DNA from: Streptomyces sp. R41
Lineage (GTDB): Bacteria; Actinomycetota; Actinomycetes; Streptomycetales; Streptomycetaceae
Direction: 5' to 3'
Assembly (NCBI RefSeq): GCF_041053055.1
Contig: NZ_CP163443.1
Span: 1,612,001-1,676,000, forward strand
Length of the DNA stretch: 64,000 bases
Position 1 is the stretch's first letter; every line of letters starts with the position of its first letter. Below the pieces are notes generated by a model, which saw only the letters and a list, made by a program, of their open reading frames with translations, ran no database searches and was not told where the DNA came from. Below are positions 35,800-63,421 of the stretch, in pieces. The translations under genes were made by a program, and so were the position numbers.

Positions 35800-37125
35800 T
35801 CACGCCAAGCGGCGGAATACGGGCTTCACCGGTCGTCCGCCCAGCCAGGGGGTGGGGTCACCGGCGTCCAGTGCCTTCCGGTATACCGCACATGCCTGGG
35901 CCACCACGTCGACGGTGCGGTCGATGTCCGCGTCGTCGAGCGCGCTGCTCACCACGAACGACGGGGCCAGCACTCCGCCCGCGAGGAGCCGGCGCAGGAA
36001 CAGGGTGCGGTACTGCTGCGACGGCTGCCGGTTCTCGTCCAGGGTGGCGAAGACCAGGTTGCTGGCCCGGCCCCGGACGACGATGTGGTCGCCGACGCCC
36101 ATGCCGGCCGCAGCGTCGCGGACACCGGCGGCCAGCCGCTCGCCGAGGGCGTGCAGCCGCGCGGTGACGCCCTCCTCGACGTAGGTGCTTTGCACGGCCA
36201 TCGCGGCTGCCAGGGAATGCGTTTCCGCACCGTGCGTGGTGGACAGCAGGAACACCCGGTCGCCGGAGTGACGCAGCCCGCCCCGCTCCATCAGCTCGCG
36301 GCGCCCGGCCAGCGCGGAGACGGCGAACCCGTTGCCCAGCGCCTTGCCGAACGTGGAGAGGTCGGGGACGACGCCGTACAGGCCCTGGGCGCCCGCCTCG
36401 GACCAGCGCAGGCCGGTGATCATCTCATCGAAGATCAGTACGCAGCCGTGCCGGTCGGCCAGTTCGCGCAGGCCGGCGAGGTATCCGGGAGGCGGCTCGG
36501 TGTGGCCGGCAGGTTCGAGAATCAGGCAGGCGACCTCGTCCTGGTACCGGGTGAGCAGCTCCTCCGTGGCGGCCAGGTCCCCGTAAGGGAACGCCACGGT
36601 GAGCTCGGTGGTCGCCGCCGGAATACCGGCGGCCATCGGCGTGGTGCCGATGAACCAGTCGTCGACGGAGAAGAACGGATGGTCGGCGCAGATGGCCACC
36701 CGCGGGCGCCCGGTGACGGCACGGGCGAGTCGCACCGCGGCGGTGGTGACGTCGGAGCCGTTCTTCGCGAACTTCACCATCTCCGCGGTCGGCACCGTGG
36801 CCAGGAAGCGTTCCGCGGCCTCGACCTCCACGATGGACGGCCGAACGAAGTTGCTGCCGCGGTCGATTTCCCTGCGCACCGCTTCGTTCACGCGTGGGTG
36901 GGCGTGGCCGAGGCTGACCGATCGCAGGCCGGAGCCGTACTCGATGTAGCGGTTGCCGTCGATGTCCCACACGTGGGCACCGCGGCCGTGGCTGATGACC
37001 GGGGCCAAGTTCTCGGGGTACTGGTCGTCGCCCTTGGCGTAGGTGTGCGCACCCCCGGGGATCATGGCGTGCAGCCGCTCGTTCGCCGTCCGCGACCGGG
37101 GCAGGAGGAACTCTTCGGTGTCCAC
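35800..37125 (-). CDS. PLP-dependent aminotransferase class III (glutamate-1-semialdehyde aminomutase-like)
   Basis: A 441-residue fold-type I PLP enzyme. IPGGAHTYAKGDD, then GAHVWDIDGNRYIEYGSGLR, the PLP-phosphate region AKNGSDVTTAAVRLARAV, LIFDEMITGLRWSEAGAQG and the Schiff-base Lys in STFGKALGNGFAVSAL (near residue 260) are all present. It resembles glutamate-1-semialdehyde aminomutase, but its position at the end of an EPS operon points to amination of a sugar or side group rather than haem synthesis. It starts with GTG at 37125, 7 bases after rfbC. It is the last gene of the 21-gene run. Confidence 0.88.
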   Translation of the reverse strand: MDTEEFLLPRSRTANERLHAMIPGGAHTYAKGDDQYPENLAPVISHGRGAHVWDIDGNRYIEYGSGLRSVSLGHAHPRVNEAVRREIDRGSNFVRPSIVEVEAAERFLATVPTAEMVKFAKNGSDVTTAAVRLARAVTGRPRVAICADHPFFSVDDWFIGTTPMAAGIPAATTELTVAFPYGDLAATEELLTRYQDEVACLILEPAGHTEPPPGYLAGLRELADRHGCVLIFDEMITGLRWSEAGAQGLYGVVPDLSTFGKALGNGFAVSALAGRRELMERGGLRHSGDRVFLLSTTHGAETHSLAAAMAVQSTYVEEGVTARLHALGERLAAGVRDAAAGMGVGDHIVVRGRASNLVFATLDENRQPSQQYRTLFLRRLLAGGVLAPSFVVSSALDDADIDRTVDVVAQACAVYRKALDAGDPTPWLGGRPVKPVFRRLA

Positions 37126-37132
37126 GCTGACT

Positions 37133-37684
37133 TCAGCTCTCTTTCTGCTTCAGGACCTGGGCGAGGCTCGGCGCCTCCCGGTCCCGCTGGGACATCGATG
37201 CGACCGGCAGCGGCCAGGGAATGGCGAGCTCCGGGTCGTCGAAGCGAATCGTCAGGTCCTCGGCCGGATCGTGCGGGCGGTCGATCCGGTACGAGGTGTC
37301 GGCGGTCTCGGTCAGCGCCTGGAAGCCGTGCGCGCACCCCGCCGGGATGTACAGGGTCGTCTGTGTCTCGCCGGACAGCTCGAAGGAGGCCACGTTGCGG
37401 TACGTCGGCGAGTCCGGCCGCAGGTCCACGACGACGTCGAAGATCTTCCCGTACGAGCACCGCACCAGCTTGGCCTCGCCCAAGCCGGAGCGCAGGTGCA
37501 GGCCGCGCAGCACGCCCCGGACCGAGCGAGAGACGCTGTCCTGGACGAAGGCGTCCGGGTCGAGGCCCACCGAGCGGACCACGTCGGCGTCGAAGGTGCG
37601 GCAGAAGAAGCCGCGCTCGTCGGCGTACGGCGTCGGTTCGAAGAGATACGCGCCGGCGATCTCCGGGACTTCGGTCGCTTTCAT
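37133..37684 (-). CDS. rfbC: dTDP-4-dehydrorhamnose 3,5-epimerase-family protein
   Basis: A 183-residue RmlC-type cupin epimerase. The catalytic set is recognisable: FCRTFDADVV and QDSVSRSVRGVLRGLHLR (His in GLHLR), YGKIFDVVVDLRPDSPTY, then LYIPAGCAHGFQALTE with the second conserved His. These enzymes epimerise C3/C5 of 4-keto-6-deoxy sugars on dTDP (or CDP) donors. No other dTDP-rhamnose gene (rmlA, B, D) is nearby, so the partner pathway may be encoded elsewhere or the substrate differs. The ATG at 37684 overlaps the preceding TGA by 4 bases. Confidence 0.9.
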   Translation of the reverse strand: MKATEVPEIAGAYLFEPTPYADERGFFCRTFDADVVRSVGLDPDAFVQDSVSRSVRGVLRGLHLRSGLGEAKLVRCSYGKIFDVVVDLRPDSPTYRNVASFELSGETQTTLYIPAGCAHGFQALTETADTSYRIDRPHDPAEDLTIRFDDPELAIPWPLPVASMSQRDREAPSLAQVLKQKES

Positions 37685-38913
37685 GGAGCCTTCCGCGAGG
37701 TGGGGGCGTGGTCGGCCGCAGGGAACAGGGCCGTGGTCAAGGAGTTGAACTGGTGGTCAAGTCGGCGGGCGGCGGCCTGGTTCCGCTCGGTGAGGGTCTG
37801 CCGCAGCTCGGCCGATCGCTTCTCCAGCGCCCGGAACTGCTCGAGCAGCCGGTCGGCGTCGACCTCGCGCGCCGGATGGCAGTACGCGCCGAGGCCCATC
37901 TCCGTCATGAGCGCGTCGCTTTTGGCCGCGTAACAGAGAGCGAGCACCGGCGTACCGGTCTTCAGCGCGCAGATCAGGTTGTGGTACCGGATCGCCACCA
38001 CGGTGTCGGCAGCCGCCATCTCCTTCATCAGGTCGGCCAGTGAGGACGGCTCGGCAGCGGTGACCAGCGGCGAGTCCACCGCGTCGAGGATCGCGGCGAC
38101 CACCGACGCGTCGCATTCGTCGCCGGTGAGCAGCCGGACCGGCCTGCCCTCCTCGACCAGCGTGCGGACGAACCGGATCGTCCCGTCGAGGTAGCGCCGG
38201 TATATCTCCTCGGCCCGGGCGCGGTCGTCGTTGCCGCCGTGGAAGTCCATGACGCCGACGCAGACCGTGCCGGGCGAGTCCGAGGGGGCGCTCGCCCGCG
38301 GCGTCGGCAGGGAGAAGGCGAGGTCCGGGTAGACCTCGTCGCGCGCGGTGTCCACGCCCATCGCCCGCATCGCGTCGCGGGACTGGGCGTCCCGGTACGA
38401 CCGGTACGCGGCCAGCCGCGCCGACCAGCGCACCAGGGCCCGGGTCGGCCGGTTGCCGATCGTCGCGGCGCCGACGCTGACCAGCGCGACCCGGGTGCCG
38501 AACAGCCGGCCGGATGCGCAGAGCAGGAACAGCGAGTACGGGAAACCCCACGGCCGCAGCGGCAGCGTGGCCTCCAGGACGCCCATGCCCGGCACGATCA
38601 CCACGTCGTGCCGGCGCACCCAGGCGGCGGTGCGGAAGACGTCGACGAGTTTGCCCAGACCCTTCGCCGCGACCGCGCCCGCACGCGACGCGGTCCGGTA
38701 CTCCCCGCGGTACCAGTGGAGCCGCGTCGCGGGGATCCCGAACCGGGTCGTCACGGCCTCGGGCCCGCCGCACAGCGCGTCCACGACCGCCTCCCGGTGC
38801 TCGGCGCGCAGGTAGCCGAGGACGGCCTCGAGCGACCCGTCGTTGCCGAGGTTGCCGGAGCCGAGCAGGCCGAACACCCCGACGCGCACCGGAGTTTCGT
38901 CCGCGGACGTCAT
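37681..38913 (-). CDS. polysaccharide pyruvyl transferase-family protein
   Basis: A 410-residue protein of the PF04230 (WcaK/AmsJ/CsaB) family, which attaches pyruvate ketals to polysaccharides. It opens VRVGVFGLLGSGNLGNDGSL, the family N-terminal loop, and carries VVIVPGMGVLEATLPL, VALVSVGAATIGNRPTR, then ICALKTGTPVLALCYAAKSD and YHNLICALK in the second Rossmann-like half, the donor-binding region. Pyruvylation would add negative charge to the polymer. It overlaps both neighbours by 4 bases. Confidence 0.85.
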   Translation of the reverse strand: MTSADETPVRVGVFGLLGSGNLGNDGSLEAVLGYLRAEHREAVVDALCGGPEAVTTRFGIPATRLHWYRGEYRTASRAGAVAAKGLGKLVDVFRTAAWVRRHDVVIVPGMGVLEATLPLRPWGFPYSLFLLCASGRLFGTRVALVSVGAATIGNRPTRALVRWSARLAAYRSYRDAQSRDAMRAMGVDTARDEVYPDLAFSLPTPRASAPSDSPGTVCVGVMDFHGGNDDRARAEEIYRRYLDGTIRFVRTLVEEGRPVRLLTGDECDASVVAAILDAVDSPLVTAAEPSSLADLMKEMAAADTVVAIRYHNLICALKTGTPVLALCYAAKSDALMTEMGLGAYCHPAREVDADRLLEQFRALEKRSAELRQTLTERNQAAARRLDHQFNSLTTALFPAADHAPTSRKAP

Positions 38914-39857
38914 GCCTGCCTCCCCTCACGGCCGGCGACGAGGGCGTCGACGGAGACCGTGAGCAGGGCCGGGTCGACCGGGGCGCGGTCCTCGACCCGC
39001 TCGCCGGCGCCCGGCCGGACCCGGCTGGTCATCCACGAGGCCAGGTGGCGATAGCACGCGCGCCGGTCGGCCGGGGACAACGGCGCCCGCCGGATCGCCG
39101 AGGCGAAGCCCCAGATGTACTCGGCGAGCAGCCGGGGCGTCGGGTGCAGCCGGCCTGCCCGGCGCGGGTCCAGGTTGACGCACCGGGAGCGCTTGGAAGG
39201 GTTCGCCCGCTCGGCGCGGGTGGGGTGGTCGCGGCGGAAGTACAGGAGTTCCGGCACCTGGTGGAAGCGCCCGTGCAGTGCGATCTCGGCGACGAACGTG
39301 CGGTCCGCGTGGTGGTAGCTGTCCATCGGCTTCACCCGGCGCAGCGCGTCGGCCCGGATCACCCCGTAGAAGTCGTCACCGCCGGGCTCGAACAGCATGC
39401 TGCGGAAGCGCTCCGGCGGGTGCGGCGAGTCGGTGGCGAGCGTGTACTCGTACGGGACCGTCACCTGGCCGTCGCCGTCGATGACCGCCTGGTCGGCGTG
39501 CGCGAGGATCACGTCCGGCCGCTCGTCCAGCGCCTCAACGCAGCGCTGCAGCAGGTCGCGGGCGTAAAGGTCGTCGTGCGAGGCCCACTTGAACAGCTCG
39601 CCGCGGGACTCGGCGAACACATGGTTGTGGTTCGGCGTGGCGCCGATGTTGCGGGGCAGCCGGAGGTACCGGATGCGCGAGTCCCGCGCGGCGTACTTGC
39701 GGCAGATCTCCTGGGTCCCGTCGGTCGAGGCGTTGTCGGAGATGACCAGCTCGAAGTCCTCGTAGGTCTGGCCGAGCAGGGCGTCGAGCGACTCGGCCAG
39801 GTACTCCTCGCCGTTGTACACGGGCAGGCCGATGCTCAGCCTGGGTTGGGCGGTCAT
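38910..39857 (-). CDS. glycosyltransferase family 2
   Basis: A 315-residue GT-A glycosyltransferase. It begins MTAQPRLSIGLPVYNGEEYL with the nucleotide-sugar DxD-like motif in VISDNASTDGTQEICRKYA, followed by RLPRNIGATPNHNHVF and KWASHDDLYARDLLQRC. The HHADRTFVAEIALHG region holds the catalytic base. The ATG at 39857 overlaps the flippase stop by 4 bases; a longer reading from 40658 runs through the flippase gene and is rejected. It adds one sugar to the lipid-linked repeat unit on the cytoplasmic face. Confidence 0.92.
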   Translation of the reverse strand: MTAQPRLSIGLPVYNGEEYLAESLDALLGQTYEDFELVISDNASTDGTQEICRKYAARDSRIRYLRLPRNIGATPNHNHVFAESRGELFKWASHDDLYARDLLQRCVEALDERPDVILAHADQAVIDGDGQVTVPYEYTLATDSPHPPERFRSMLFEPGGDDFYGVIRADALRRVKPMDSYHHADRTFVAEIALHGRFHQVPELLYFRRDHPTRAERANPSKRSRCVNLDPRRAGRLHPTPRLLAEYIWGFASAIRRAPLSPADRRACYRHLASWMTSRVRPGAGERVEDRAPVDPALLTVSVDALVAGREGRQA

Positions 39858-41161
39858 GAGGTCCTCACTTCGGGGATGGAGTTCTGGCGGTGCTCGCCCA
39901 GGGCGGACCGCAGTTGCAGCCACCACACGGCCGAGCCGCTGACGGTCGCGGCGGCGACGCCCCAGGCCGAGCCGACCGTGCCGGCCATGACCGCCCCGCC
40001 GAGCCCGCCGCCGACGTAGCAGGCGGAGGCGAACAGCTGGCAGCGCAGGCTGCGTCGGGCCGCGCCGAGCGCGCGCAGCCCGGCCGCCGCGCCGGTGCCG
40101 AGGCCCGCGCCCGCGACGCCGAGGGTGATCGGCACGATGAGCTGTGCGGAGGAGTGCCAGACGTCGCCGAGGGCGAGTTCGCCGAGCCGGTCCGGCATCA
40201 GCAGCAGCGCCGCGCCCCACAGCAGCGCGGCACCGGCCTGCCCGCCACCGAGGAGGAGACAGAACCTGCCGAGGCGGTGCGGGGCCTGCCGCAGCACGCG
40301 TGCCGCTTCCGGGACCGTGACCAGCGAGAGACCCATGAGTACGGCGAGGAAGGGACCCATCAGGAGCTCGGCGCCCCGCACCGCACCCACCGCACCGAGC
40401 CCGACGATCGCGCCGAGCCCGTAGGCCCGCAGCTGGCTCGCGCCGCTGAGGCTGACGTTCTCGACCAGGTACCGGTAGCCGAGATCGCGCTGCTCGCGAA
40501 GCCACCCGCGCGCCTCGGTCACCCGGGGCCCGATGTCGGACTGGAAGTAGCCGTACGCAGCGGCCACCGTGGCGGACGCGCCCCAGGCGAGCACGAAAGC
40601 GGCCACGCTGCCCACACGGGCCGCCACGACCATGGCGGGTATGAGCGCGATGCCCCACACGACGTCGTTGACGAACGCCTTGCGCCCGGTGCCGGCGGCG
40701 AAGAACGCAAACCGCCAGGCGTCCTGGAGCAGCAGCCCCGGCAACATGACGCCAAGGGCGGCGAACGCGGGCCCCACGCGGCCGCCGAGGCCGAGCCCGG
40801 CCACCACGGACACCGCGCCGAGGGCGGTACCAACGCCGAGCGCGGTACCCGTCGACCGGACCACAGCCCCGCGCCAGGACGCGTCCGGCACGCCGCTGAA
40901 GCGCACCACGAGCGGGTCGGTGGCAAGGCCGCGGGAGACGTTGAGCACCACGCCGTAGGTCACCCAGGCCAGGCTGAACACGCCGAACGCGGTCACCCCC
41001 AGCGAGCGGGCCACGTAGATGCCCACCGCGAAGTTGCTGATGCTGGAGGCCGCCTGGTCGGCCAGTCCCCAGGACAGCCGGCCGACGAGGGCCCGCTTGG
41101 CGGACCCGGCCGGTGGCGCCGTTGTCTGCGGATTCTCCCCCTCGGTGGTCATCGGCGTCAT
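39854..41161 (-). CDS. Wzx-type polysaccharide flippase (oligosaccharide export family)
   Basis: A 435-residue integral membrane protein with about 12 hydrophobic helices, the MATE/Wzx-like architecture of lipid-linked oligosaccharide flippases. It starts MTPMTTEGENPQTT and passes into SWGLADQAASSISNFAVGIY, the typical N-terminal helix with a conserved Gln, then YLVENVSLSGASQLRAYGLG mid-protein, equivalent to the second bundle start. It should move the undecaprenyl-linked repeat unit across the membrane. The ATG at 41161 overlaps the previous TGA; a longer same-frame extension to 42379 runs through the neighbouring gene. Confidence 0.85.
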   Translation of the reverse strand: MTPMTTEGENPQTTAPPAGSAKRALVGRLSWGLADQAASSISNFAVGIYVARSLGVTAFGVFSLAWVTYGVVLNVSRGLATDPLVVRFSGVPDASWRGAVVRSTGTALGVGTALGAVSVVAGLGLGGRVGPAFAALGVMLPGLLLQDAWRFAFFAAGTGRKAFVNDVVWGIALIPAMVVAARVGSVAAFVLAWGASATVAAAYGYFQSDIGPRVTEARGWLREQRDLGYRYLVENVSLSGASQLRAYGLGAIVGLGAVGAVRGAELLMGPFLAVLMGLSLVTVPEAARVLRQAPHRLGRFCLLLGGGQAGAALLWGAALLLMPDRLGELALGDVWHSSAQLIVPITLGVAGAGLGTGAAAGLRALGAARRSLRCQLFASACYVGGGLGGAVMAGTVGSAWGVAAATVSGSAVWWLQLRSALGEHRQNSIPEVRTS

Positions 41162-42432
41162 GCCTTGATCAGGCCGGCGCCGTGCAGGGCGTCGGCCGCG
41201 ACGGCCACGGTGTCGAACGGCAGCCCGGACCGCTCGGCGACGTCCAGCAGACTGTGCTCGCCGTCGGAGAGGTTGAGCACCCAGAGCATGGCCATCTGGG
41301 CCTGCTTGGTGTCGCTGCGGCCGCCGAGCGCGTCGTACAACCCGCGTCGGCCCAGCTGTGGTTCGCCGTAGGGGCTGAGGTTGAGGTACCGCCGGTTGCG
41401 GTCGAGCACGGCGAACGCCTCGCGGCAGACTGCAAGGGTGTCCGCCATCGCCTCCGGGAAGACGAAGTCCGGGTTGTCCGCCGAGGTGTGGTACTCGGGG
41501 TAGCCGGCGTACGGGGTCCGGCTGAGCGAGCCCACGCCGAGATTGAACCCGGGCGAGCAGTACTGCCGCTCGTCGTAGCCGTACGGGGTGAACTCGTCGA
41601 CGTGGTGCGGGCGTTCGGATGCGGTCAGCACATGCCGCATCACCCGGTCGATCTCCGCGTCGCCGCGTCTGCTCTGCTTGTACGTCAACTGGCCCCGGTC
41701 CCCGGCGCAGGCGAGCACGAGGCCGTGCTTGACCCGGTCCACCCGCTCCGCGTTGCGGGCCAGCCAGGTGATCGCCCCGATGGTGCCGGGCGCGTAGATG
41801 AACCGGTAGGTGTAGTACGGCGTCTCCTGTGCCAGCGCCCGGGCCAGGAACGTCGCCACCGCGATGCCTGCCAGGTTGTCGTTGGCCAGCGACGGGTGGC
41901 AGACGTGGCAGGAGACGATCACCTCGTCGGGGACCTGCCCGGGGACGACATGCTCGGCGTAGGTGAGGTGGCCGTCTTCGAGCGTGGAGTCGATGCGTAC
42001 CTCGTAGTCGCCGTCCGGCAGCGCGTCCAGGGTCTCCTGGGCCAGGCAGAATCCCCATTCCGGCTTGTAGTAGCTGGTGCGGTACGGCACCCAACTCGGG
42101 TGGTCCGGAAGGGTGTGCAGGTGCGTGCGCAGCTCGGCCAGCGGCATGGTCGCCGACACCGGCACGCTGTAGCCGAGCACGTGCAGGCTGGACGCGGCGA
42201 AGTCGACGACCCGGTTGCCGGCGGTGTCGGCGATGTAGGCGTCGCGGATGTTCCACTCCTGCGGCACCGTCCAGTCGAGCACCTGCGTCCCGGTCGGCAC
42301 CTCGTGCACCTGCAGCGGGACGTACTCGCCGACGATCTCCAGGGTGGCGCGCACACCGTCGCCGGTGATGCTCCGGCACAGCGGGTACAGCCGCTCCACC
42401 AGGGCGTGCATCTCTTCGCCGACTGCGGTCAT
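41158..42432 (-). CDS. DUF4910/M28-like aminopeptidase-domain protein
   Basis: A 424-residue protein recognised as the DUF4910 type: LYPLCRSITGDGVRATLEIV at the N-terminus, PQEWNIRDAYIADTAGNRVV, then an M28-like zinc peptidase core with VIVSCHVCHPSLANDNLAGI (metal His and Asp), GTIGAITWLARN and EYHTSADNPDFVFPEAM, and a C-terminal winged helix. Such genes are frequent in polysaccharide clusters; the real substrate is not known to me, and a role in trimming an amide-linked sugar substituent is speculation. The ATG at 42432 overlaps the epimerase stop by 4 bases. Confidence 0.82.
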   Translation of the reverse strand: MTAVGEEMHALVERLYPLCRSITGDGVRATLEIVGEYVPLQVHEVPTGTQVLDWTVPQEWNIRDAYIADTAGNRVVDFAASSLHVLGYSVPVSATMPLAELRTHLHTLPDHPSWVPYRTSYYKPEWGFCLAQETLDALPDGDYEVRIDSTLEDGHLTYAEHVVPGQVPDEVIVSCHVCHPSLANDNLAGIAVATFLARALAQETPYYTYRFIYAPGTIGAITWLARNAERVDRVKHGLVLACAGDRGQLTYKQSRRGDAEIDRVMRHVLTASERPHHVDEFTPYGYDERQYCSPGFNLGVGSLSRTPYAGYPEYHTSADNPDFVFPEAMADTLAVCREAFAVLDRNRRYLNLSPYGEPQLGRRGLYDALGGRSDTKQAQMAMLWVLNLSDGEHSLLDVAERSGLPFDTVAVAADALHGAGLIKA

Positions 42433-43454
42433 CGGCGCCACCGCAGGGTGTCGTCGACGGTGCCGGCGTCGGACGCCGCGCTCAGCACGGCGAGGCGGGT
42501 GAAGCGTCGCTCGAAGTCCTCCCGGGTCAGGTCGAACTTCCGGTAGGCGTCGGCGAGTTCGAGCGCGCCCTGCTTCACCGTCCACTCGCAGTCGAAGCCA
42601 GGAATTGCGGCGCGGAACCGGGAGAAGTCCACCCGGTACGACCGCGGATCGGCACCGTTCTCGCCGGTGATCCTCACCTTCGCGCCGGTCACCGCTTCGG
42701 CGACCTGTTCGGCGATCTCGGCGACCGTGACGTTGTTGGTCTCGCTGCCGATGTTGAACGCCCGGTCGTGCACCGCTTCCTGCGGCGCGGTCAGCGCGGC
42801 CGTGAAGGCCCTTGCGATGTCGGCGGCGTGCACCAGCGGGCGCCAGGGGGTGCCGTCGGAGAGCACCAGCACCTCGCCGGACAGGAGGGCGTGGCCCACC
42901 AGGTTGTTCAGCACGATGTCGGCGCGCAGCCGGGGCGAATAGCCGAAAGCGGTGGCGTTGCGCATGAACACCGGGGTGAAGTCGTCGTCGGCCAGCGCGT
43001 GCAGGTCGTCCTCCACCCGCACCTTGGACTCCGCGTACGGCGTCACCGGGCGCAGCGGGGCGTCCTCGGTCACCAGGTCGTCGCCGCCTGCGGCGCCGTA
43101 GACCGAGCAGGTGGACGCGTACAGGAAGCGCCGCACTCCGGCGTCGCGGGCCAGCCGGGCCAGCCGTACGGACGCGTGGTGGTTGATGTCGTAGGTGAGT
43201 TCCGGCGCCAGCGATCCCAGCGGGTCGTTGGAGAGCGCGGCCAGGTGGATCACGGCGTCCACCCCCGCCACGTGTTCGGCCGTGACGTCGCGCAGGTCCA
43301 CCCGGTGCCCCGACGGGTCCGCGGGCGCCGGGCCGAGGACGCAGTCGGCGAACAGGCCGGCGTCGAGGCCGACGACCTCGTGTCCGGCGGCCGCGAGGAC
43401 CGGGGCCATCACGGTGCCCAGGTAGCCCTGGTGTCCGGTCAGCAGTACGCGCAA
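42429..43454 (-). CDS. NAD-dependent epimerase/dehydratase (extended SDR)
   Basis: A 341-residue extended short-chain dehydrogenase. The nucleotide-binding GHQGYLG is at residues 7-13, AVIHLAALSNDPLG follows, the catalytic Ser lies in YASTCSVYGA and the Tyr-Lys pair in YAESK, with substrate-binding RPLVHAADIARAF. It acts on a nucleotide sugar, as an epimerase, reductase or 4,6-dehydratase; no motif decides which. Neighbours encoding a cytidylyltransferase-like enzyme and a C-methyltransferase suggest a CDP-linked branched deoxysugar. Confidence 0.9.
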   Translation of the reverse strand: MRVLLTGHQGYLGTVMAPVLAAAGHEVVGLDAGLFADCVLGPAPADPSGHRVDLRDVTAEHVAGVDAVIHLAALSNDPLGSLAPELTYDINHHASVRLARLARDAGVRRFLYASTCSVYGAAGGDDLVTEDAPLRPVTPYAESKVRVEDDLHALADDDFTPVFMRNATAFGYSPRLRADIVLNNLVGHALLSGEVLVLSDGTPWRPLVHAADIARAFTAALTAPQEAVHDRAFNIGSETNNVTVAEIAEQVAEAVTGAKVRITGENGADPRSYRVDFSRFRAAIPGFDCEWTVKQGALELADAYRKFDLTREDFERRFTRLAVLSAASDAGTVDDTLRWRR

Positions 43455-43457
43455 AGT

Positions 43458-44105
43458 TCAGTCCCCCAGATTGAGCGTGAGTTTGGTGACGGCGAACGCC
43501 TCGGCGTAGCGCGCGTGGCATTCGATACCGCGGATCCGGGCAAGGCCGAGGAATGCCTCCCGGTCGTACCAGGGCCGGTGCCGCTGCGAGGGGTAGTGCT
43601 CCTGCAACAGCCGCACCTTCAGTTCGGCGATCTCGGGCGACAGCGGCTGGTACGCCGCCGGTCGGCCGAGATCGCCGTCCCACTTGACGATCTCGTAGCC
43701 GAGCACGAGGTGGTCGCGGAACGCGGTGGGCAGCAGCTGCGCCAGGCCGCGGTGATCCTGGTGCGCGTCGTCGGTACGCGGGGCGAGGACCAGGTCCGGC
43801 TCGGTCTGCAGACGCAGCTCCTCGACCGCGGCCTTGGCCTCCTCCCAGTGCGCGGGCATCCGTCCGTCCGGCAGCTTGAGCACGGTCAGCCGCAGGTCGG
43901 CGCCCGGGCAGAAGGCGGCGAGCGCGGCCCGCTCCTCCTGCTCCCGCTCGCTGCCACCGCCGGAGAGCACCAGCGCGTCGACCCGGGTGCCCGGGTGCGC
44001 GAGGCACATCGTCAGCAGCGTGCCGCCGGCGCCGATGGCGATGTCGTCGCAGTGCGCCCCTACCGCGACGATCCGGTCCAGGCGCCCGGCCCCGAGCCGG
44101 ATCAC
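43458..44105 (-). CDS. PIG-L family deacetylase
   Basis: A 215-residue LmbE/PIG-L zinc deacetylase. The metal motif AHCDDIAIGAGG (a variant of AHPDD with Cys for Pro) lies near residue 17, and the distal ligand is in DDAHQDHRGLAQL. Family enzymes remove N-acetyl groups from GlcNAc-type sugars. The GTG at 44105 overlaps the preceding TGA (GTGA), and the gene ends 3 bases before the epimerase. It implies that an N-acetylated sugar is deacetylated, perhaps before amine modification. Confidence 0.88.
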   Translation of the reverse strand: MIRLGAGRLDRIVAVGAHCDDIAIGAGGTLLTMCLAHPGTRVDALVLSGGGSEREQEERAALAAFCPGADLRLTVLKLPDGRMPAHWEEAKAAVEELRLQTEPDLVLAPRTDDAHQDHRGLAQLLPTAFRDHLVLGYEIVKWDGDLGRPAAYQPLSPEIAELKVRLLQEHYPSQRHRPWYDREAFLGLARIRGIECHARYAEAFAVTKLTLNLGD

Positions 44106-47387: not shown

Positions 47388-47389
47388 GC

Positions 47390-48694: not shown

Positions 48695-48695
48695 C

Positions 48696-50234: not shown

Positions 50235-50242
50235 GCGCCCCC

Positions 50243-54399: not shown

Positions 54400-54427
54400 C
54401 GAAGTCCCCTTGTTTCTACGCCGTCTT

Positions 54428-56362
54428 CTACGCCGCCGAGCAAGCGCTCCGGCCGGACCCGGAGGTCGCGTCGCGGTACCAGTACTCGAGGGTCAGCACA
54501 TGCCAGAGATGCTTGGAGAAGTCCTGCTGCCCCGCGGCGTCCTCGGCGACCATGCGCGCCAGCGCGTCGCGGCGCAGGAACCCGGAATTGACGAGCACGC
54601 CGTCGTTCACCACCTCGCGCACCAGCGGTGCCAGGTCCCGGCTCATCCAGGCGCGCAGCGGGGCGCTGAACAGGCCCTTGGGCCGGTACACGATCTCCCG
54701 GGGCAGGATCGAGGTGGCCGCCTCCTTGAGGACGGCCTTGCCCTGCCGTCCGGCGATCTTGCGATCGCCGGGGACGGCGAACGCCGCCTTGACCACCTCG
54801 ATGTCCACGTACGGCACCCGTACCTCGGTCGAGGCGGCCATGCTGGAGCGGTCCGTGTACGTGAGGTTCAGGCCCGGAAGGAACATCCGGGTGTCGGTCA
54901 GGCACATGCGGTTGACGAAGTCGTCGAGGTCGTTGTCCTGGTAGACGTCCGCATGTTCGGTCAGCACGTCGTCGACCGTCCCGGCCAGGTCCGGATCGAG
55001 AAGGGCGAGCAACTCGTCCTGGTCGTACATGGTGTAGCTGCGCCGGAACGCGGTCTCCTCCGGCAGATCGGCGAAGGAGAGGAACCGCTTGGCGAAGCGC
55101 ACCGACCGGTACCCCCGGCGGGACGTGGCGACCGGCAGCCGGTCCACGGCCCCGGACACCCCGCGGCGCAGGGGGCGCGGGACGCGCTGGTAGCGCAGCG
55201 CGAGCAGGTTGGCCAGGTGCTTGCGGTAACCGGCGAACAGCTCGTCGGCACCCATCCCCGAGAGCATCACCTTGACCCCGGCCTCCCGGGCGGCCGAGCA
55301 GATCAGGTACGTGTTGATCGCGGCGGGGTCGCCGATCGGCTCGTCCAGGTGGTACGTCATCTGCGGCAGCAGGTCGAGCACGTTCGGGGCGATCTCGATC
55401 TCGTGCAGGTCGACGCCGAACCGCTCGGCCACCTGCCGGGCATAGCGCAGGTCGTCCGGCATCGCCTCGAACTTGGCGTCCTCGGCGCGGAAGCCGATCG
55501 TGTAGGCGGAGATCCCGGGTTGGTGGCGGGCCGCGAGCGCGGTCAGATAGCTGGAGTCGAGGCCGCCGGAGAGGAAGGTCGCCACGGGTACGTCGGAGAG
55601 CAGGTGGCGCCGCGTCGACTCCTCGACGATGGCGGCCAGGTCCGGCTGCTCTCCTGCCCGGGCCCGATCCCGACCCTCGGCGGCGACATCCCGGAGATTC
55701 CAGTACCGGCCGCGCTCCACCCGGCCGTCGGGCCGGATCCGCAGCCAGCTCCCCGGCGGCAACTTCTCCGCTTCGCGGAACGCGCAGCGCGAGTCCGGCA
55801 CCCAGTAGTACAGCAGCGAGGCCACCAGCGCCGCGTGGTCCACCTCCAGCGACCCACCGGTCGCGGCGGCGAGCGCCTTGAGCTCGGAGGCGAACACCAG
55901 GCCCTCGCCGCGCCTGAGCAGGAACAGCGGCTTGATCCCCAACTGGTCGCGGGCGAGCACCAGTTCACCGGTTCGCTCGTCGAAGATCCCGAACGCGAAC
56001 ATGCCGCGCAGCCGGGACAGGCAGTCCGTGCCCCAGCGCCGCCAGGCCTCGAGCAGCACCTCGGTGTCGGAGGTGCCGCGGAAGCGCACCCCGGTGGCTG
56101 CCAGCTCGGCACGCAGCTCGGGCGCGTTGTACAACTCGCCGTTGTACGTCAGGGCGAGGCCGTCCGAGACCATCGGCTGGGCGCCGGTCTCGGACAGGTC
56201 GATGATGGCCAGCCGGCGGTGCCCGAGCTGCACTTCGCCGTCACCCACGGGGTGGCCGTAGCGGCCCGCACCGTCCGGGCCGCGGTGGGCGAGGATGGCG
56301 GTGAGCCGGTCGGTCACGGCCTTTCCGTCCGGCCATCGGTAAGTGCCTGCGATGCCACACAT
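54428..56362 (-). CDS. asnB: asparagine synthetase B-like amidotransferase
   Basis: A 644-residue class II glutamine amidotransferase. Cys2 in MCGIAGTYRWPDG is the nucleophile, RGPDGAGRYGHP and LTYNGELYNAPELRAEL complete the glutaminase domain (1-200), and the synthetase domain has the PP-loop FLSGGLDSSYLTAL near 258 with DELFAGYRKH. In EPS loci this family (as in WbpS-like enzymes) amidates sugar carboxyl groups to uronamides. That fits the AlgD-type uronate pathway here but is inference. It starts 3 bases after the Wzz-like gene. Confidence 0.9.
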   Translation of the reverse strand: MCGIAGTYRWPDGKAVTDRLTAILAHRGPDGAGRYGHPVGDGEVQLGHRRLAIIDLSETGAQPMVSDGLALTYNGELYNAPELRAELAATGVRFRGTSDTEVLLEAWRRWGTDCLSRLRGMFAFGIFDERTGELVLARDQLGIKPLFLLRRGEGLVFASELKALAAATGGSLEVDHAALVASLLYYWVPDSRCAFREAEKLPPGSWLRIRPDGRVERGRYWNLRDVAAEGRDRARAGEQPDLAAIVEESTRRHLLSDVPVATFLSGGLDSSYLTALAARHQPGISAYTIGFRAEDAKFEAMPDDLRYARQVAERFGVDLHEIEIAPNVLDLLPQMTYHLDEPIGDPAAINTYLICSAAREAGVKVMLSGMGADELFAGYRKHLANLLALRYQRVPRPLRRGVSGAVDRLPVATSRRGYRSVRFAKRFLSFADLPEETAFRRSYTMYDQDELLALLDPDLAGTVDDVLTEHADVYQDNDLDDFVNRMCLTDTRMFLPGLNLTYTDRSSMAASTEVRVPYVDIEVVKAAFAVPGDRKIAGRQGKAVLKEAATSILPREIVYRPKGLFSAPLRAWMSRDLAPLVREVVNDGVLVNSGFLRRDALARMVAEDAAGQQDFSKHLWHVLTLEYWYRDATSGSGRSACSAA

Positions 56363-56365
56363 TTC

Positions 56366-57886
56366 CTACCGCGCCTCCTGGTCGTTGTCCGGACCCTGTG
56401 CGGCCCACACCGGCAGCCGTTCCGTCCGCCGCCCGCCCGTCCGGTTCTGCCGAGCCGGTATCTCGCTGCGGCCGCGCAGCGCGGTGTGCAGCCCGTCCCA
56501 CAGCGTGCCGTCGGTCCGGTCACGCGGATCGGGGTCGATCAGCACCACACCGATCACCGGAATGCGCTGGTCCGCGAGCTGCCGCGCCACGGTGTGCAGC
56601 CATGCGGCGCTGCCGTGCCCGGCACGCACGACGAGCACGGTCTGGGTGCCGAGGTACTGGAGGTCGGTCCACGCCGTGCCGGGCGCCACCGAGCCGACGC
56701 CGATCAGGCGCTCCTGAGGCGACACGGCCGCGGCACGCTCGCCGCTGACCACGGTCGGGTCACCTGACTTCGGGCGGCGCTTGGCGAGCTGCGGGCCGGG
56801 CAGACCGTCGATGACGACCACCGGCCCCTGCGCCGCCACTGCCCGGGCGAGGTCCAGGGCGATCACGCTCGTGCTGCGTGCACAGCCCAGTTCCAGCAGC
56901 GACACCGGTTCCGCGGAGCCGCGCACGGTGCGGGCGAGGCTCGTGGTGAGGCGTTCGCGTGCCACCCGGGTCCGTCGGCGCTGCCACAGCCTGCCCGACC
57001 GGCGGGGCAACTCCGCGATGACCGAGGCGCCGAGGTTCGCCGCGATGTCCCGGCGCAGCACGGGGCGGTCAGCCACCACCACACCCACCGCGGCCAGCGC
57101 GAGCCCGACGAACAGTCCGAGGACAAGTCCGATCACGGCGTTGGTGACGGCGGCCTTGGGCAGGGAGTGCCGCACCGCGCGCGGGGCGTCCACGATCTGC
57201 GTGCCGGCGATGAGCTGGGGCGTGCCGATGCGCGCCTCCTCGGCGCGCTGGCTGAAATCGGCGACCCGCGAAGTGAGCTCGGCCCGGCGGGCGAAGAGCG
57301 ACTCCATGCTCGCCGACGCTTTCGGGTCGCTGTCCGGCGATCGGCCGCCGATCTGCTTGTTGACCCCGGCAAGCTCCTCCTGCATGCGGTCACGCTGGGC
57401 GAGCAGGCCCTTGGCCTCGGCGTCCGCGATGTCCCGTACCCGCTTCGCATGGTCCGCGACGAACGCATCGGCCAGTGCCTTGGCCCGGGCCACCGCTTCC
57501 GCGTCGGTGTCACCAGTCACATCGATCTGGAGCACGTTGTTGGACAATCCGGTGCCCCGGTAGTCCCGCATGAAGTCCTCCGGTTTTTCCGGGGACTTGA
57601 GGGACCGCAGGGCCTGGTCGGCGATCCGCGTGGTCCCCAGCAGCTGGACGTCGGTGCGGATCAGCGTTCCGGTGTCGTTCGGCTGGTCCTCCTGATGCGC
57701 GACCAGCACCTTGGTCACCGCGGCCGGCGCCGGCGGCAGCAGGACCGCCACCGCCGCGCCGATCAGCAGTCCGAGCAGCGCCATGGCGCACCAGAGACGG
57801 CGGCGCCTGCGGACCGCGACCACCAGCGCCTGCAGGTCGATGAGCGGAGTGGCGGCCGACGACTCCGAAGTCGTGCTCGTCGTCAC
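56366..57886 (-). CDS. Wzz-like chain-length protein with degenerate kinase domain
   Basis: A 506-residue membrane protein. A Wzz-type N-terminus (TM at about 31-52, WCAMALLGLLIGAAVAVLL) precedes an extracytoplasmic coiled-coil region (60-230; QRAEEARIGTPQ and the conserved tail before TM2), TM2 at about 236-260 (IGLVLGLFVGLALAAVGVVV), and a cytoplasmic domain with the BY-kinase layout. The Walker A position reads CARSTSVIALDLARAVAA, lacking GKS/T, and Walker A'-like VVVIDGLPG lacks its Asp-Asp. It is probably non-catalytic. GTG start overlapping the previous stop (GTGA). Confidence 0.85.
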   Translation of the reverse strand: MTTSTTSESSAATPLIDLQALVVAVRRRRRLWCAMALLGLLIGAAVAVLLPPAPAAVTKVLVAHQEDQPNDTGTLIRTDVQLLGTTRIADQALRSLKSPEKPEDFMRDYRGTGLSNNVLQIDVTGDTDAEAVARAKALADAFVADHAKRVRDIADAEAKGLLAQRDRMQEELAGVNKQIGGRSPDSDPKASASMESLFARRAELTSRVADFSQRAEEARIGTPQLIAGTQIVDAPRAVRHSLPKAAVTNAVIGLVLGLFVGLALAAVGVVVADRPVLRRDIAANLGASVIAELPRRSGRLWQRRRTRVARERLTTSLARTVRGSAEPVSLLELGCARSTSVIALDLARAVAAQGPVVVIDGLPGPQLAKRRPKSGDPTVVSGERAAAVSPQERLIGVGSVAPGTAWTDLQYLGTQTVLVVRAGHGSAAWLHTVARQLADQRIPVIGVVLIDPDPRDRTDGTLWDGLHTALRGRSEIPARQNRTGGRRTERLPVWAAQGPDNDQEAR

Positions 57887-59253
57887 GCTGAACCTCCCGT
57901 GGCATGGCCGCGAACCGCGAACGTCAAAGTGGCGTCGTCCAAAGGACGGTCGGCAGTCCGCGTCGGACCGGTGCGGACCATGCCGGCGACGACGATGCCG
58001 ACGACGTCATGCCTGCCGTCCGCACACGCCTCGGCGATGCCGGCGAGCTCCTCCGCGGTCCAGCTGCCCGCGCTCAGGACGACCAGGGCACCGGACTCCG
58101 TGCCGCGGTCCGGCACGATCGGCCGGTCCACCGAAACCTCCACCACCCGCAGCAGCGGATCGCCCTTGGCCTCGGCGACGAGCTGCCCGGCGGCCCGTCG
58201 AGCGACCTCGTCGCCTTCCGGTACGACAACCAGCAGGCGCCGGGGGGTCGGCAGCTGTTCCCGGAGGCGAGCGCACACCCGCCGGTAACGGATCCGCCTG
58301 TCGGCCTCGTCGCCGGACCTCTGCGGGGTCGGTATGTCCCACCGGGTGTCGACGCCGAGAAGTCGGCGGATCCGGGCCCGTGGGCCAGGGCTTTCCGGTC
58401 GGAGCGCGCGCCGTTCACCAGGCACGTCGACGGTGCCGAGGAGCGCCGAGCCCAGCGCCGCGGCGATCTCCGGTTCGGTGCGCAGCCGGCGACTCACCCG
58501 TGCGGCGGCGAGATGGCCGATGACCGCGAGCAGGAAGAACAGCAGGGCCCCGCCGACGATGAGCTGCATCCTCGTCGGCGCTGCCGCGCCGGTCGGCCGG
58601 GGCGCCGGCCCCATGACGACCATGCTGGCCTTGTTGGTCGCCGGGTCGGCCTCCTCCAGCTTCTTCATGGCGTCCTGCAGCTCGGTGCGCAGCTTCTCGA
58701 GCTCGGTGCGGGCCTGCACGCTCTCCACGGTCTGCCCCGGATCGGCCGCATTGGCCAGGTCGGTGATGCGGCGGTTGGTCTCCGCCACCTTCTTCCGCAG
58801 CGCCTCGGTCCCCGTAGCCACTTCGGAGTCGGCACTGCCGCCTGCGATCCGCGCGGCGAAGGTGACGAATTGCTGGGCCACCTGGTCGGAGAGCCGCTGC
58901 GCACGCTCCGGGCTGTCGGCCGTACCCGAGATCTTGATGATGTTCCCGTCGGCCGCCTTGGCGCTCACCTGATCCCGCAGTTCGACGCCGCTGACGCCCT
59001 TCCAGCCGAGCGTGGCGGCCGCGCGGTCGACCACCGCCGAACTGGTCGCGATGTCCACCTGAGTCAGCAGTTCGCGCTCCTCCCACAGCCCCGGCAGCAG
59101 TACCGATGCCGACGCCGTGTACCGCGGCGGAAACACCAGCACCGAGCTGCCGTAGCCGACGAGCGCACCCACCACGGCGAGTACGGCGAGAAGCCGCCAC
59201 CGCCGACGGAGAATCCGTCCGATCGTGACCAGACGGATCGTGTCTTCACTCAA
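57883..59253 (-). CDS. second Wzz-like protein, degenerate kinase tail
   Basis: A 456-residue paralogue-type Wzz protein. TM1 is at about 19-40 (LLAVLAVVGALVGYGSSVLV), a coiled-coil-containing extracytoplasmic part follows (TRTELEKLRTELQDAMKKLE region), then TM2 near 228-248 (LIVGGALLFFLLAVIGHLAA) and a cytoplasmic domain with RRLLVVVPEGDEVARRAAGQ where a P-loop would be expected. The Walker A Lys is absent and no Tyr-rich tail is visible. It starts with TTG at 59253, overlapping the GT4 stop (TTGA). Confidence 0.85.
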   Translation of the reverse strand: MSEDTIRLVTIGRILRRRWRLLAVLAVVGALVGYGSSVLVFPPRYTASASVLLPGLWEERELLTQVDIATSSAVVDRAAATLGWKGVSGVELRDQVSAKAADGNIIKISGTADSPERAQRLSDQVAQQFVTFAARIAGGSADSEVATGTEALRKKVAETNRRITDLANAADPGQTVESVQARTELEKLRTELQDAMKKLEEADPATNKASMVVMGPAPRPTGAAAPTRMQLIVGGALLFFLLAVIGHLAAARVSRRLRTEPEIAAALGSALLGTVDVPGERRALRPESPGPRARIRRLLGVDTRWDIPTPQRSGDEADRRIRYRRVCARLREQLPTPRRLLVVVPEGDEVARRAAGQLVAEAKGDPLLRVVEVSVDRPIVPDRGTESGALVVLSAGSWTAEELAGIAEACADGRHDVVGIVVAGMVRTGPTRTADRPLDDATLTFAVRGHATGGSA

Positions 59254-60504
59254 TGGAGCGGCCTCTTCCCCGTGCGGACCGGCCCGCCCGCCGACACCGG
59301 AGCACGGTCCCGGCAGGCAGCGGCGTATGCGGCGAGCAGCGACGCTTGCGAGTTCCGCCAGGAGAGCTGCCCGCCGATCCGCTCCTGGCCGATCTTGCCC
59401 ATCCGGGCCCGCTTCTCCGGATCGTCGAGAAGCACCGTGATGAGCTTGGCGAATTCCGCCTCGTCGTTGGCAGGCGCGTAGAGGGCGGCGTCACCGGCGG
59501 AAACCCGTGCCTCCCGGAGCTCGAACGAGACGATCGGCCGACCCATCGCCATGTACTCCAGGACCTTGTTCATGGTCGACACGTCGTTGAGCGGATTGCG
59601 CGGGTCGGGCGAGAGGCACACGTCGGCGGTGGACAGGTAGCGCACCAGGTCGGCGTCCGGAACGCGCCCGGTGAACTGAACCTGCTCGGAGAGCCCGAGC
59701 CGCCGGGACAGTTCCACCATCGCGTCGAAGGCGTCGCCGGCGCCGACGAACACCGCATGCCAGTCGCTCCGCCCGAACTCGTCACGCAGCTTCGCTAGGG
59801 CCCGCAGGGCGTAGTCGACACCGTCCTGAGGCCCCATGACGCCGAGGTAGCACAGCAGATGAGGCTTGCCGCGCTTCAACTCCGGCTCGGGCGGCACCGG
59901 TTGGAACCGGTCGATCTGGGGTGCGCTGCGCACCACGAAAACGTCCGCCGGCCGCTTGCCGCCACGCCGCAGCGCGACGTCCCGGTAGCTCTCGTTCGTG
60001 GCGAGCACGATGTCCGCGGCCCGGTAGGTCCGCCGCTCCAGCGCGCACACGGCGCGGTAGAGCAGATCCTCACCGCGGTCGAACCGGGAGAGGTACAGCT
60101 CGGGTACCAGGTCGTGCTGGTCGAAGACGAACCGCGCGCCGCGCCGCTTCAGCCACAGCGCCGGCAGGAACAGCAGGTCGGGCGGGTTGCAGGCGTGGAC
60201 CACGTCGACCGGGCCGACCTTGCGGGCCAGCCGGACCGTGTGCCACAACGCCGATCCGTATTCCCGCAGGTAGCCGGCCGGCCCTCCGGTGGCCGCGCGC
60301 AACGGGTAGCGGTGAATCCGCACCCCGTCGATCACCGCCTCCGGCTCCGTGTCCCGCTTCTCCCCCCGGGGACAGATGACGTGCACCTCCCAGCCCGCGT
60401 CGCGCAGCGTCGTGCACTCCTGCCACACCCGCCGGTCGAACGGCACCGACAGGTTCTCCACCAGGATCAGCGCGCGTCGGTTCGTCCCGTCGCCGCTGAT
60501 TGCG

Positions 60505-60515
<11 letters not shown>
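59250..60515 (-). CDS. glycosyltransferase family 4 (WcaI/ExpE-like)
   Basis: A 421-residue GT-B glycosyltransferase. The acceptor half starts RRALILVENLSVPFDRRVWQ with EGYEVHVICP-like WEVHVICPRGEKRD, then VDVVHACNPPDLLFLPALWL and FVFDQHDLVPELYLSRF. The donor half has LCYLGVMGPQDGVDYALRAL, VQFTGRVPDADLVRYLSTAD and PDPRNPLNDVSTMNKVLEYM, in place of the canonical EX7E. TTG at 60515 is the only in-frame start near the beginning and overlaps algD by 11 bases; the ribosome site is weak, so the start is somewhat uncertain. Confidence 0.92.
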
Positions 60516-61821
<1,306 letters not shown>

Positions 61822-61894
61822 GACTCGTTCCTCCCCCAAGGCAGGCCCTTCCGGCCTGCGGTCCGTGCGCCGACCAAACGACGCCCCCCGCGCA

Positions 61895-63421
61895 TCAGTA
61901 GGCCCCCTGCCCGTGGAGCACCGCACGCAGCGTCTTCCACAAGATCACTGTGTCGAGGGCGAGCGACCAGTCCTCCACGTACCGCAGGTCGAGGCGGACC
62001 GCCTCCTCCCACGGCAGATCGCTGCGCCCGCTGATCTGCCACAGGCCGGTGAGCCCGGGCTTGACCAGCAGCCGCCGCCGGATGTCCGGGCCGTACGCGG
62101 CGGACTCCTCCGGTAGCGGAGGCCGCGGACCGACGAGCGACATCGAGCCGGTGAGCACGTTGAAAAGCTGCGGGAGCTCGTCGATCGAGTACCGGCGCAG
62201 CACTGCTCCCACCCGGGTCACCCGCGGATCCCGGCGGAGCTTGAACAGCAGCCCTGCACCCTCGTTGCGGTCGGCCAGCTCGGTACGGGCCCCGTGAGCC
62301 CCGGCGACCATGGTGCGGAACTTGAGAATGGTGAACTCACGGCCGTCCTTGCCGACCCTGCGCTGGCGGTAGAACGCCCCACCCCGGCTGTCCACCAGCA
62401 CGAGCAGCCCGACGAGGACCATCAGCGGCGCGAAGAGCATCAGCAGGATCGCCGCGCCCATCCGGTCGACGACCCCTTTGATCGCCCGGCGGCCCCCGGT
62501 GAAGGTCGGCATGCTGACCCGCAGCAGCGGGATCCCGAGCACCGCGTCGACGTGCAGCCGCGGGCCGGCCACCTCCATCAGCACGGGGGCCACGATCATC
62601 TCGGCGTCGCTGCCTTCGAGGTTCCAAGCCAGCCGCTGCAGCCGGTCCGGTGACCAGTGCGGGTCCGGTGTGACCGCGACGACGCGGTAGCCGTCGTGGC
62701 GAACGTGCTTGGCAACGTCCGCCAGTTGGCCGACGACCGGCACTCCGTCCAGTTCTTGATCACCGTCGAGCCCGAGACCATCCGCCGTGCACACCCCGTC
62801 CACCCGCCAGCCGAGATGCGGGAACTTGCGGGTTCGGGTGATCAGATCGCGCACGGTGTCCGGGCTCCCGGCAGCGAGCACCGGTCTCAGGCACCGTCCT
62901 TCCTTGCGCTGTTTGTGCAGCCAGAGGCGCAGCAGATACCGCGTGGGCATGGTGATGAGCGCGATCGCGGGGATCGCGACGAAGATCCAGAGCTTGATGT
63001 TGCGCGAGGTGAGGGCGATCCCGCCGAGCGCCAGTACGACGGTCGCCATGAACAGTGAGCGTCCGAGCCGGCGGAATTCCTCGGCGCCCTGGCCGAGCGC
63101 GGCCGGAGCCCACGACCGGCTCACCGCAAGCGCTCCCAGCACCAGCAGCTCGGTGCCGAATGCGAGAATTCCCCACTTCTCATGCCAGTTGGCCGCGTCC
63201 CGGGCCCCGAAGAAGTCGCCGATCGCCGCCACCACCAAGGCGGTGGCCACGGTGTCGCTGATGATCACGGTACGGCGGTACCGCTGCTCCCAGTCGGTCG
63301 CCGGCTGGCTGATCGCCCCGTTCGCCAGACGCCCGCGCGCCGACGGAAAAGGGCCGACTATTCCCCCTTGCCGCACAGAACCCCCCAAGGTCCCCAGTGG
63401 TTCGACGTGTTCGCCTACCAC
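61895..63421 (-). CDS. exopolysaccharide polyprenyl glycosylphosphotransferase (initiating sugar transferase)
   Basis: A 508-residue WbaP/CpsE-type enzyme. Four N-terminal transmembrane helices (about 45-165), a CoA-binding-like middle domain (180-300), a further membrane segment (ILLMLFAPLMVLVGLLVLVD, about 325-345) and the C-terminal bacterial sugar transferase domain with FTILKFRTM, RVGAVLRRYSIDELPQLFNV, LVGPRPPLP and LLVKPGLTGLWQISGRSD. It transfers sugar 1-phosphate to undecaprenyl phosphate, the first step of Wzx/Wzy assembly. The GTG at 63421 has GGGGGCG upstream. It is the first gene of the operon. Confidence 0.95.
   Translation of the reverse strand: MVGEHVEPLGTLGGSVRQGGIVGPFPSARGRLANGAISQPATDWEQRYRRTVIISDTVATALVVAAIGDFFGARDAANWHEKWGILAFGTELLVLGALAVSRSWAPAALGQGAEEFRRLGRSLFMATVVLALGGIALTSRNIKLWIFVAIPAIALITMPTRYLLRLWLHKQRKEGRCLRPVLAAGSPDTVRDLITRTRKFPHLGWRVDGVCTADGLGLDGDQELDGVPVVGQLADVAKHVRHDGYRVVAVTPDPHWSPDRLQRLAWNLEGSDAEMIVAPVLMEVAGPRLHVDAVLGIPLLRVSMPTFTGGRRAIKGVVDRMGAAILLMLFAPLMVLVGLLVLVDSRGGAFYRQRRVGKDGREFTILKFRTMVAGAHGARTELADRNEGAGLLFKLRRDPRVTRVGAVLRRYSIDELPQLFNVLTGSMSLVGPRPPLPEESAAYGPDIRRRLLVKPGLTGLWQISGRSDLPWEEAVRLDLRYVEDWSLALDTVILWKTLRAVLHGQGAY

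Follow-up and report, generated by a model that had tools for sequence, protein, structure and literature searches.

What does a streptomycete make with 21 closely packed genes, and do these genes belong together? We address this question for a locus of Streptomyces sp. R41, whose 10.46-Mb genome is a single contig. The window, that is, the whole 64,000-nucleotide (nt) stretch analysed, corresponds to positions 1612001-1676000 of this contig, and coordinates below refer to the window. An earlier note on this DNA had described a 21-gene, single-strand locus at 35800-63421. Open reading frames (ORFs) and GC content by codon position, which is coding-typical, confirm it: 21 ORFs run along the minus strand, beginning at 63421 and ending at 35800, and are numbered g1 to g21 in that direction (Table 1). 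The locus is real, conserved and of Wzx/Wzy exopolysaccharide (EPS) type, and the new fact is the conservation of the whole cluster across the genus.

Whole-cluster presence or absence in the surveyed genomes

We surveyed 246 Streptomyces genomes for two products of the locus, the AlgD-type dehydrogenase g2 (E<=1e-100) and the DUF4910 protein g16 (E<=1e-60). AlgD was found in 92 genomes, of which 91 have a single match and one has two fragments. DUF4910 was found in 91 genomes, every one AlgD-positive, and the one AlgD-only genome is 82% complete. The pair lies 18.7-20.0 kb apart on the same contig and strand in 90/91 genomes and on two contigs in the other. Twenty loci were chosen from the 92 for contiguous assemblies, low-scoring ones included. 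In 20/20 loci all 21 genes were recovered with order and strand unchanged (amino-acid identity 64-96%); the best match spans only part of a gene in a few of these loci, chiefly G027. Because the whole order is kept in all 20 relatives, the cluster is not a product of chance. A second sample comprised 80 named loci, kept of 431 found with g9 and extending at most 10 kb to either side of it (76 from Streptomyces, the others from Streptantibioticus, Kitasatospora, 'Actinobacteria bacterium OV320' and a Hamadaea metagenome-assembled genome). All 80 are collinear for the genes they cover, with distal genes missing in L133 and L147 as the stretch ends early. Across the genomes surveyed, the locus is either present whole or absent.

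Assembly machinery and predicted uronate precursor

Families of the 21 genes were assigned using Pfam and NCBIfam profiles. These recover the sugar transferase, the two Wzz-like proteins, the three glycosyltransferases (two of family GT4, one of GT2) and the asparagine synthase, heparinase, beta-helix and pyruvyl transferase genes of the earlier note, and add eight functionally important genes that it had not listed (g7, g12-g16, g20 and g21). An initiating polyprenyl-phosphate sugar transferase is present, g1 exceeding the TIGR03025 cut-off, as are Wzz chain-length regulators, g4 and g5 both scoring above the PF02706 cut-off. The Wzx-like protein reported earlier holds at the level of fold: the g17 model has the fold of MOP flippases, with WzxE among the top matches and further matches to MATE and MurJ (6fhz, MATE, E 1.5e-8; 9g9p, WzxE, E 7.7e-8; template-modelling score ~0.7). 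Judged by gene context, g17 is a predicted Wzx rather than a MATE transporter. The cytoplasmic tails of g4 and g5 (56366-59253) are long and resemble tyrosine-kinase P-loop domains, with no Walker A motif recognisable by eye; these proteins may therefore be pseudokinase chain-length regulators.

Compared with proteins of the PDB, g2 scores 478 bits to the Pseudomonas GDP-mannose dehydrogenase and 225 to the best UDP-glucose dehydrogenase, so that the AlgD-like dehydrogenase of the earlier note is upheld and AlgD-type GDP-mannose dehydrogenase is, by sequence, the right assignment. Were g2 a UDP-glucose dehydrogenase, the uronate would be glucuronate; both enzymes belong to one superfamily and an AlgD-specific NCBIfam model is not listed for g2, but the gap between the two bit scores makes this reading very hard to sustain. 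GDP-mannose for g2 can come from two mannose-1-phosphate guanylyltransferase matches above the cut-off, encoded elsewhere in the genome. A locus of Wzx/Wzy type with an AlgD-type dehydrogenase points to a polymer that likely contains uronate, which agrees with the Wzy-dependent, uronate-containing product proposed earlier.

Predicted branched-sugar module and occurrence outside the genus

A second group of genes appears devoted to a modified sugar. g12 matches D-mycarose 3-C-methyltransferase at 294 bits, and the best solved relative of g15 is 6vo6. g13 is below the cut-offs of both TIGR02623 and PF00483 and resembles CDP-glucose synthases. g16 combines PF16254 (383 bits) with HTH_47 (110 bits), the DUF4910 architecture. 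A role of DUF4910 proteins in modified-sugar biosynthesis has been proposed from gene neighbourhoods (PMC4000134). The CA_C2195/DUF4910 neighbourhoods described there are alike in joining DUF4910 to short-chain dehydrogenase/reductase (SDR), nucleotidyltransferase and sugar methylase genes, sometimes with an exporter and a pyruvyltransferase, but the available text of that source mentions no AlgD or heparinase for them. From these families, g12-g16 together with g20 and g21 are expected to yield a single unusual sugar, branched and possibly carrying an amino group.

A class-wide survey of 296 genomes from 114 genera (AlgD at E<=1e-90) found AlgD in 18 genomes and 8 genera, with 8 of the 18 genomes outside Streptomyces. 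Nine AlgD loci from these eight genomes were compared gene by gene. In family f17 (three genomes), AlgD, g3 and g12-g16 match at 62-84% identity and RmlC at 55-62%; matches to g1 and g18 are weaker, g21 is found in one genome, and g4-g11, g17 and g19 are unmatched within the 38 kb examined. Two loci of family f13 carry AlgD, g3, g6-g11 and g17 at 42-72% without g12-g16, and family f33 carries AlgD, g3, g6-g8 and g10 at 41-63%. In the remaining outside loci AlgD is accompanied by g3 or stands alone. Because the modules occur apart outside the genus, the Streptomyces locus is, by its gene content, a mosaic joining two modules. AlgD and g3 adjoin in eight of the nine outside loci, which makes g3 a likely mannuronosyltransferase.

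The f17 loci (L170-L175) form a different locus, in which AlgD, its GT4 enzyme and the g12-g16 sugar cassette are joined to other genes; it may give other actinomycetes a second polymer of mannuronate and branched sugar. AlgD with its GT4 enzyme, without most of the cluster, is seen in two further actinobacterial families (L178, L176-L177).

Proposed polymer and putative editing enzymes

We consider it fairly probable that the 21 genes act as one long operon and direct the Wzx/Wzy-type assembly of an acidic, mannuronate-containing heteropolysaccharide, a fixed polymer maintained in more than a third of the genus. AlgD homology in g2 begins at 61821 (residue 36) of an ORF open to 61926, and the start is probably 61821, not 61926. 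Given this start, the longest intergenic gap in the cluster is only 73 nt, and one long transcript of all 21 genes is therefore likely. g1 would begin the repeat unit on undecaprenyl phosphate. GDP-mannuronate, made from GDP-mannose by g2, would supply the mannuronate that g3 attaches. Further sugars would be attached by g11 and g18, one of them being the 3-C-methyl-branched sugar from g12-g16 with g20/g21. The uronate may be amidated by g6, g7 and g8 would work on the repeat unit inside the cell, and g19 would attach pyruvate. The unit would then be flipped by g17 and polymerised by g10 to a chain length governed by g4/g5, with g9 acting on the polymer outside the cell. Every substrate in this scheme, the sugar order and the roles of g6-g9 and g14-g16 are predictions.

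Several observations weigh against this reading. The Wzy-like protein of the earlier note, g10, has 10 hydrophobic segments and a PF04932 match (E 4.1e-5, 23.8 bits) that stays below the cut-off of 31.7. g6 reaches 429 bits with the asparagine synthase model TIGR01536, over its cut-off of 267, and 458 bits with the XrtA/PEP-CTERM amidotransferase model TIGR03108, under its cut-off of 817; since it passes as a plain asparagine synthase, amidation of the uronate is a guess from context. Hydropathy gives no signal or transmembrane stretch for g8, which probably acts in the cytoplasm and may never meet the exported polymer. Relatives of g7 (E<=1e-100) occur in 14 of 118 genomes, six of which (families f11 and f18) are outside the 18/296 AlgD-positive genomes, so that the substrate of g7 and g8 need not be mannuronate. 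In the ninth outside AlgD locus, a 14.9-kb contig with about 1 kb after AlgD, there is no g3 match. The locus is missing from 154/246 Streptomyces genomes. Finally, distances of the cluster correlate weakly with those of rpoB (r 0.32, reached by 85/2000 permutations), which leaves plain vertical descent unproven. In favour of the reading, distances in the two modules correlate with each other (r 0.93, reached by 0/2000 permutations), so that the block acts as a single unit.

The putative editing enzymes allow other readings. In g8 the NNH, YH and AHxHAD motifs, which we take to hold the catalytic Asn/Tyr/His of heparinase II/III, are kept in 9/9 homologues and align to the heparinase III active site (5jmd). 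Dermatan-sulfate epimerase has a heparinase-type fold common to g8. It is possible, if unlikely, that g8 is a C5 epimerase and not a lyase, partnered by g7 and g6 and acting on the lipid-linked unit within the cytoplasm: the missing export signal and the retained active-site residues would fit, and g8 is beside g7 and g6 in G326 and G291 (in G296 they share a contig without being neighbours), but no residue examined separates epimerase from lyase.

g9 is a lipoprotein, as judged by eye from its lipobox (LLATGC). Its model (mean predicted local distance difference test score, pLDDT, 66; 181 residues at least 90; C-terminal part mostly below 50) is a right-handed beta-helix with AlgE4/AlgE6 epimerase modules as top matches, and a glycosidase, the RbmB lyase and phage tailspikes follow closely in score. 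A profile search of the PDB with g9 gave nothing significant (best NosD, E 0.062). Alginate epimerases are known for the active-site motif DPH[DE], which is present in 0/24 g9 homologues. We regard g9 as a putative epimerase, lyase or glycosidase. An alginate-like polymer edited in periplasm style, with g9 as C5 epimerase and g8 as exported lyase, is highly improbable, and the earlier note's on-board trimming or epimerising enzymes lose ground with the tie of the g9 model among many beta-helix enzymes, the missing motif and the hydropathy of g8. Its alginate-like toolkit is not supported either, Pfam scans of the 21 genes detecting no alginate synthase (Alg8/Alg44), pore or lyase family; the g7 relatives in genomes outside the AlgD-positive set also speak against it. 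The Pseudomonas/Azotobacter alginate operon shares an AlgD-type GDP-mannose dehydrogenase with the locus, but it is synthase-dependent whereas the locus is of Wzx/Wzy type, with no other alginate gene family seen.

A wall-anchored, teichuronic-acid-like glycopolymer in place of free slime, attached to peptidoglycan by LCP ligases encoded elsewhere, is an alternative that deserves attention, even if we think it rather less likely than a free polymer. The host is Gram-positive, a PAP2-family phosphatase gene is matched next to g21 in 20/20 relatives, and Tua-family matches occur below their own cut-offs, but no LCP family appears in the scans of the 21 genes (the rest of the genome was not searched). 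The PAP2 phosphatase may recycle the lipid carrier. Within the preferred reading of an acidic mannuronate heteropolysaccharide, a more specific version is doubtful: that more than one-third of species keep one mannuronate polymer, amidated, C5-epimerised and bearing a 3-C-methyl amino sugar, with a heparinase-fold epimerase editing its uronate in the cytoplasm while on the lipid carrier, and the locus unchanging as if selected for one exact structure.

Gene layout and upstream region

Overlap by 4 nt, ascribed earlier to most genes, applies to 11/20 junctions; the remainder are other overlaps or short gaps. The start of g10 was reset to 48691, leaving a 4-nt gap between g9 and g10.

Table 1. 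Features of the locus, in window coordinates
Feature	Position	Strand	Evidence
Conserved upstream block, probably promoter region	63732..63844	-	~310-420 nt upstream of g1; alignment of 21 sequences
g1 initiating polyprenyl-phosphate sugar-1-phosphate transferase	61895..63421	-	PF02397 213 bits; TIGR03025 397, cut-off 296
g2 GDP-mannose 6-dehydrogenase, AlgD type	60505..61821	-	PDB 1mfz AlgD 478 bits; FGGSC motif present
g3 GT4 glycosyltransferase, predicted mannuronosyltransferase	59250..60515	-	PF13692; AlgD-adjacent outside genus
g4 Wzz-like chain-length protein	57883..59253	-	PF02706 28.5 bits, cut-off 25.5
g5 Wzz-like chain-length protein, kinase-like tail, apparently degenerate	56366..57886	-	PF02706 44.6 bits; PRK09841 weak
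g6 glutamine-dependent amidotransferase, Asn-synthetase-like	54428..56362	-	PF00733; TIGR01536 429 bits, cut-off 267
g7 two-domain oxidoreductase, zinc ADH + Gfo/Idh/MocA	52207..54399	-	PF00107, PF01408
g8 heparinase II/III-fold protein	50243..52210	-	PF07940, PF16889
g9 right-handed beta-helix lipoprotein	48696..50234	-	PF13229; lipobox; model
g10 probable Wzy-like polymerase	47390..48691	-	sub-threshold PF04932; 10 hydrophobic segments
g11 GT4 glycosyltransferase	46146..47387	-	PF00534
g12 sugar 3-C-methyltransferase	44899..46149	-	PF08421/PF08484; PDB 4rv9 294 bits
g13 sugar-1-phosphate nucleotidyltransferase, CDP-glucose-synthase-like	44102..44902	-	TIGR02623 187.5, cut-off 300; PF00483 20.6, cut-off 21.2
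g14 PIG-L family deacylase	43458..44105	-	PF02585
g15 extended SDR, nucleotide-sugar epimerase/dehydrogenase	42429..43454	-	PF01370; best PDB 6vo6
g16 DUF4910 metallopeptidase-like sugar protein	41158..42432	-	PF16254 383 bits; PDB 3k9t 498 bits
g17 Wzx flippase (predicted)	39854..41161	-	no Pfam match; model pLDDT 84.8 resembles MOP transporters
g18 GT2 glycosyltransferase	38910..39857	-	PF00535
g19 polysaccharide pyruvyl transferase	37681..38913	-	PF04230 86.5 bits
g20 RmlC-type 3,5-epimerase	37133..37684	-	PF00908; TIGR01221 159.5 bits, cut-off 155.8
g21 class-III aminotransferase, GSAM-like	35800..37125	-	PF00202; PDB GSAM 203 bits
PAP2-family phosphatase gene, convergent, beside cluster	34908..35792	+	PF01569

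Averaged per 20 alignment columns, pairwise identity is 0.61-0.83 for most of the upstream block and mostly 0.1-0.55 in the surrounding non-coding columns. In R41 some 350 nt separate the block from the g1 start. Its core GGTCTAG is exact in 16/21 sequences, 173-453 nt from the g1 start. One half of the near-invariant core ATGGTCTAGATTGACC equals half of the DasR site consensus (dre, as given in PMC4398421). A DasR site was considered and is not claimed: the block has TGGTCTAGA, the left dre half in that source, and the right half is absent. No riboswitch or known RNA reached the gathering score in the window and L004. Between 45500 and 64000, the sigma-70 consensus gave no promoter-like site and matches to the terminator consensus were not above those in shuffled sequences. 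Further upstream there is a NAGPA phosphodiester glycosidase gene (L004 3124-4398, equivalent to window coordinates 66123-67397). Transposase relics suspected by eye upstream were dropped, the fragments tried having no Pfam match.

Relation to known systems and significance

The earlier note called such a combination little described. This is fair for the gene set, but Wzx/Wzy clusters of a filamentous actinomycete (PMC13390465) and a mannuronate-containing Streptomyces EPS, characterised chemically (PMC10317929), have been reported. The wps-1 to wps-3 clusters of Actinoplanes missouriensis, also a filamentous actinomycete, likewise hold Wzx, Wzy, Wzz and glycosyltransferase genes; they differ in having 10-11 genes, with no AlgD, heparinase, beta-helix, DUF4910 or pyruvyl transferase listed in the available text, and wps-1 has sulfotransferases (PMC13390465). 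Deletion of wps-1 distorts the sporangia (PMC13390465). The Ebosin (ste) cluster of Streptomyces sp. 139 is an EPS cluster likened here by size (27 ORFs), and no word starting 'mannuron' occurs in the main text of its paper (PMC4347597). The mannuronate-containing EPS fits the locus but is not linked to it, gene-cluster words not being found in the available text of PMC10317929. The literature searched, with most subscription journals outside the search, holds no description of this gene set or of a link to a product.

Wzy loci usually vary between close strains. Here, by contrast, all 21 genes are in order in each of 20 relatives. Should so many species indeed retain a single exact glycan, that glycan probably has a basic role in mycelial or spore life. 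If true, the locus would also give tractable access to mannuronate heteropolymers and to candidate enzymes, among them the DUF4910 protein and the g7/g8 pair.

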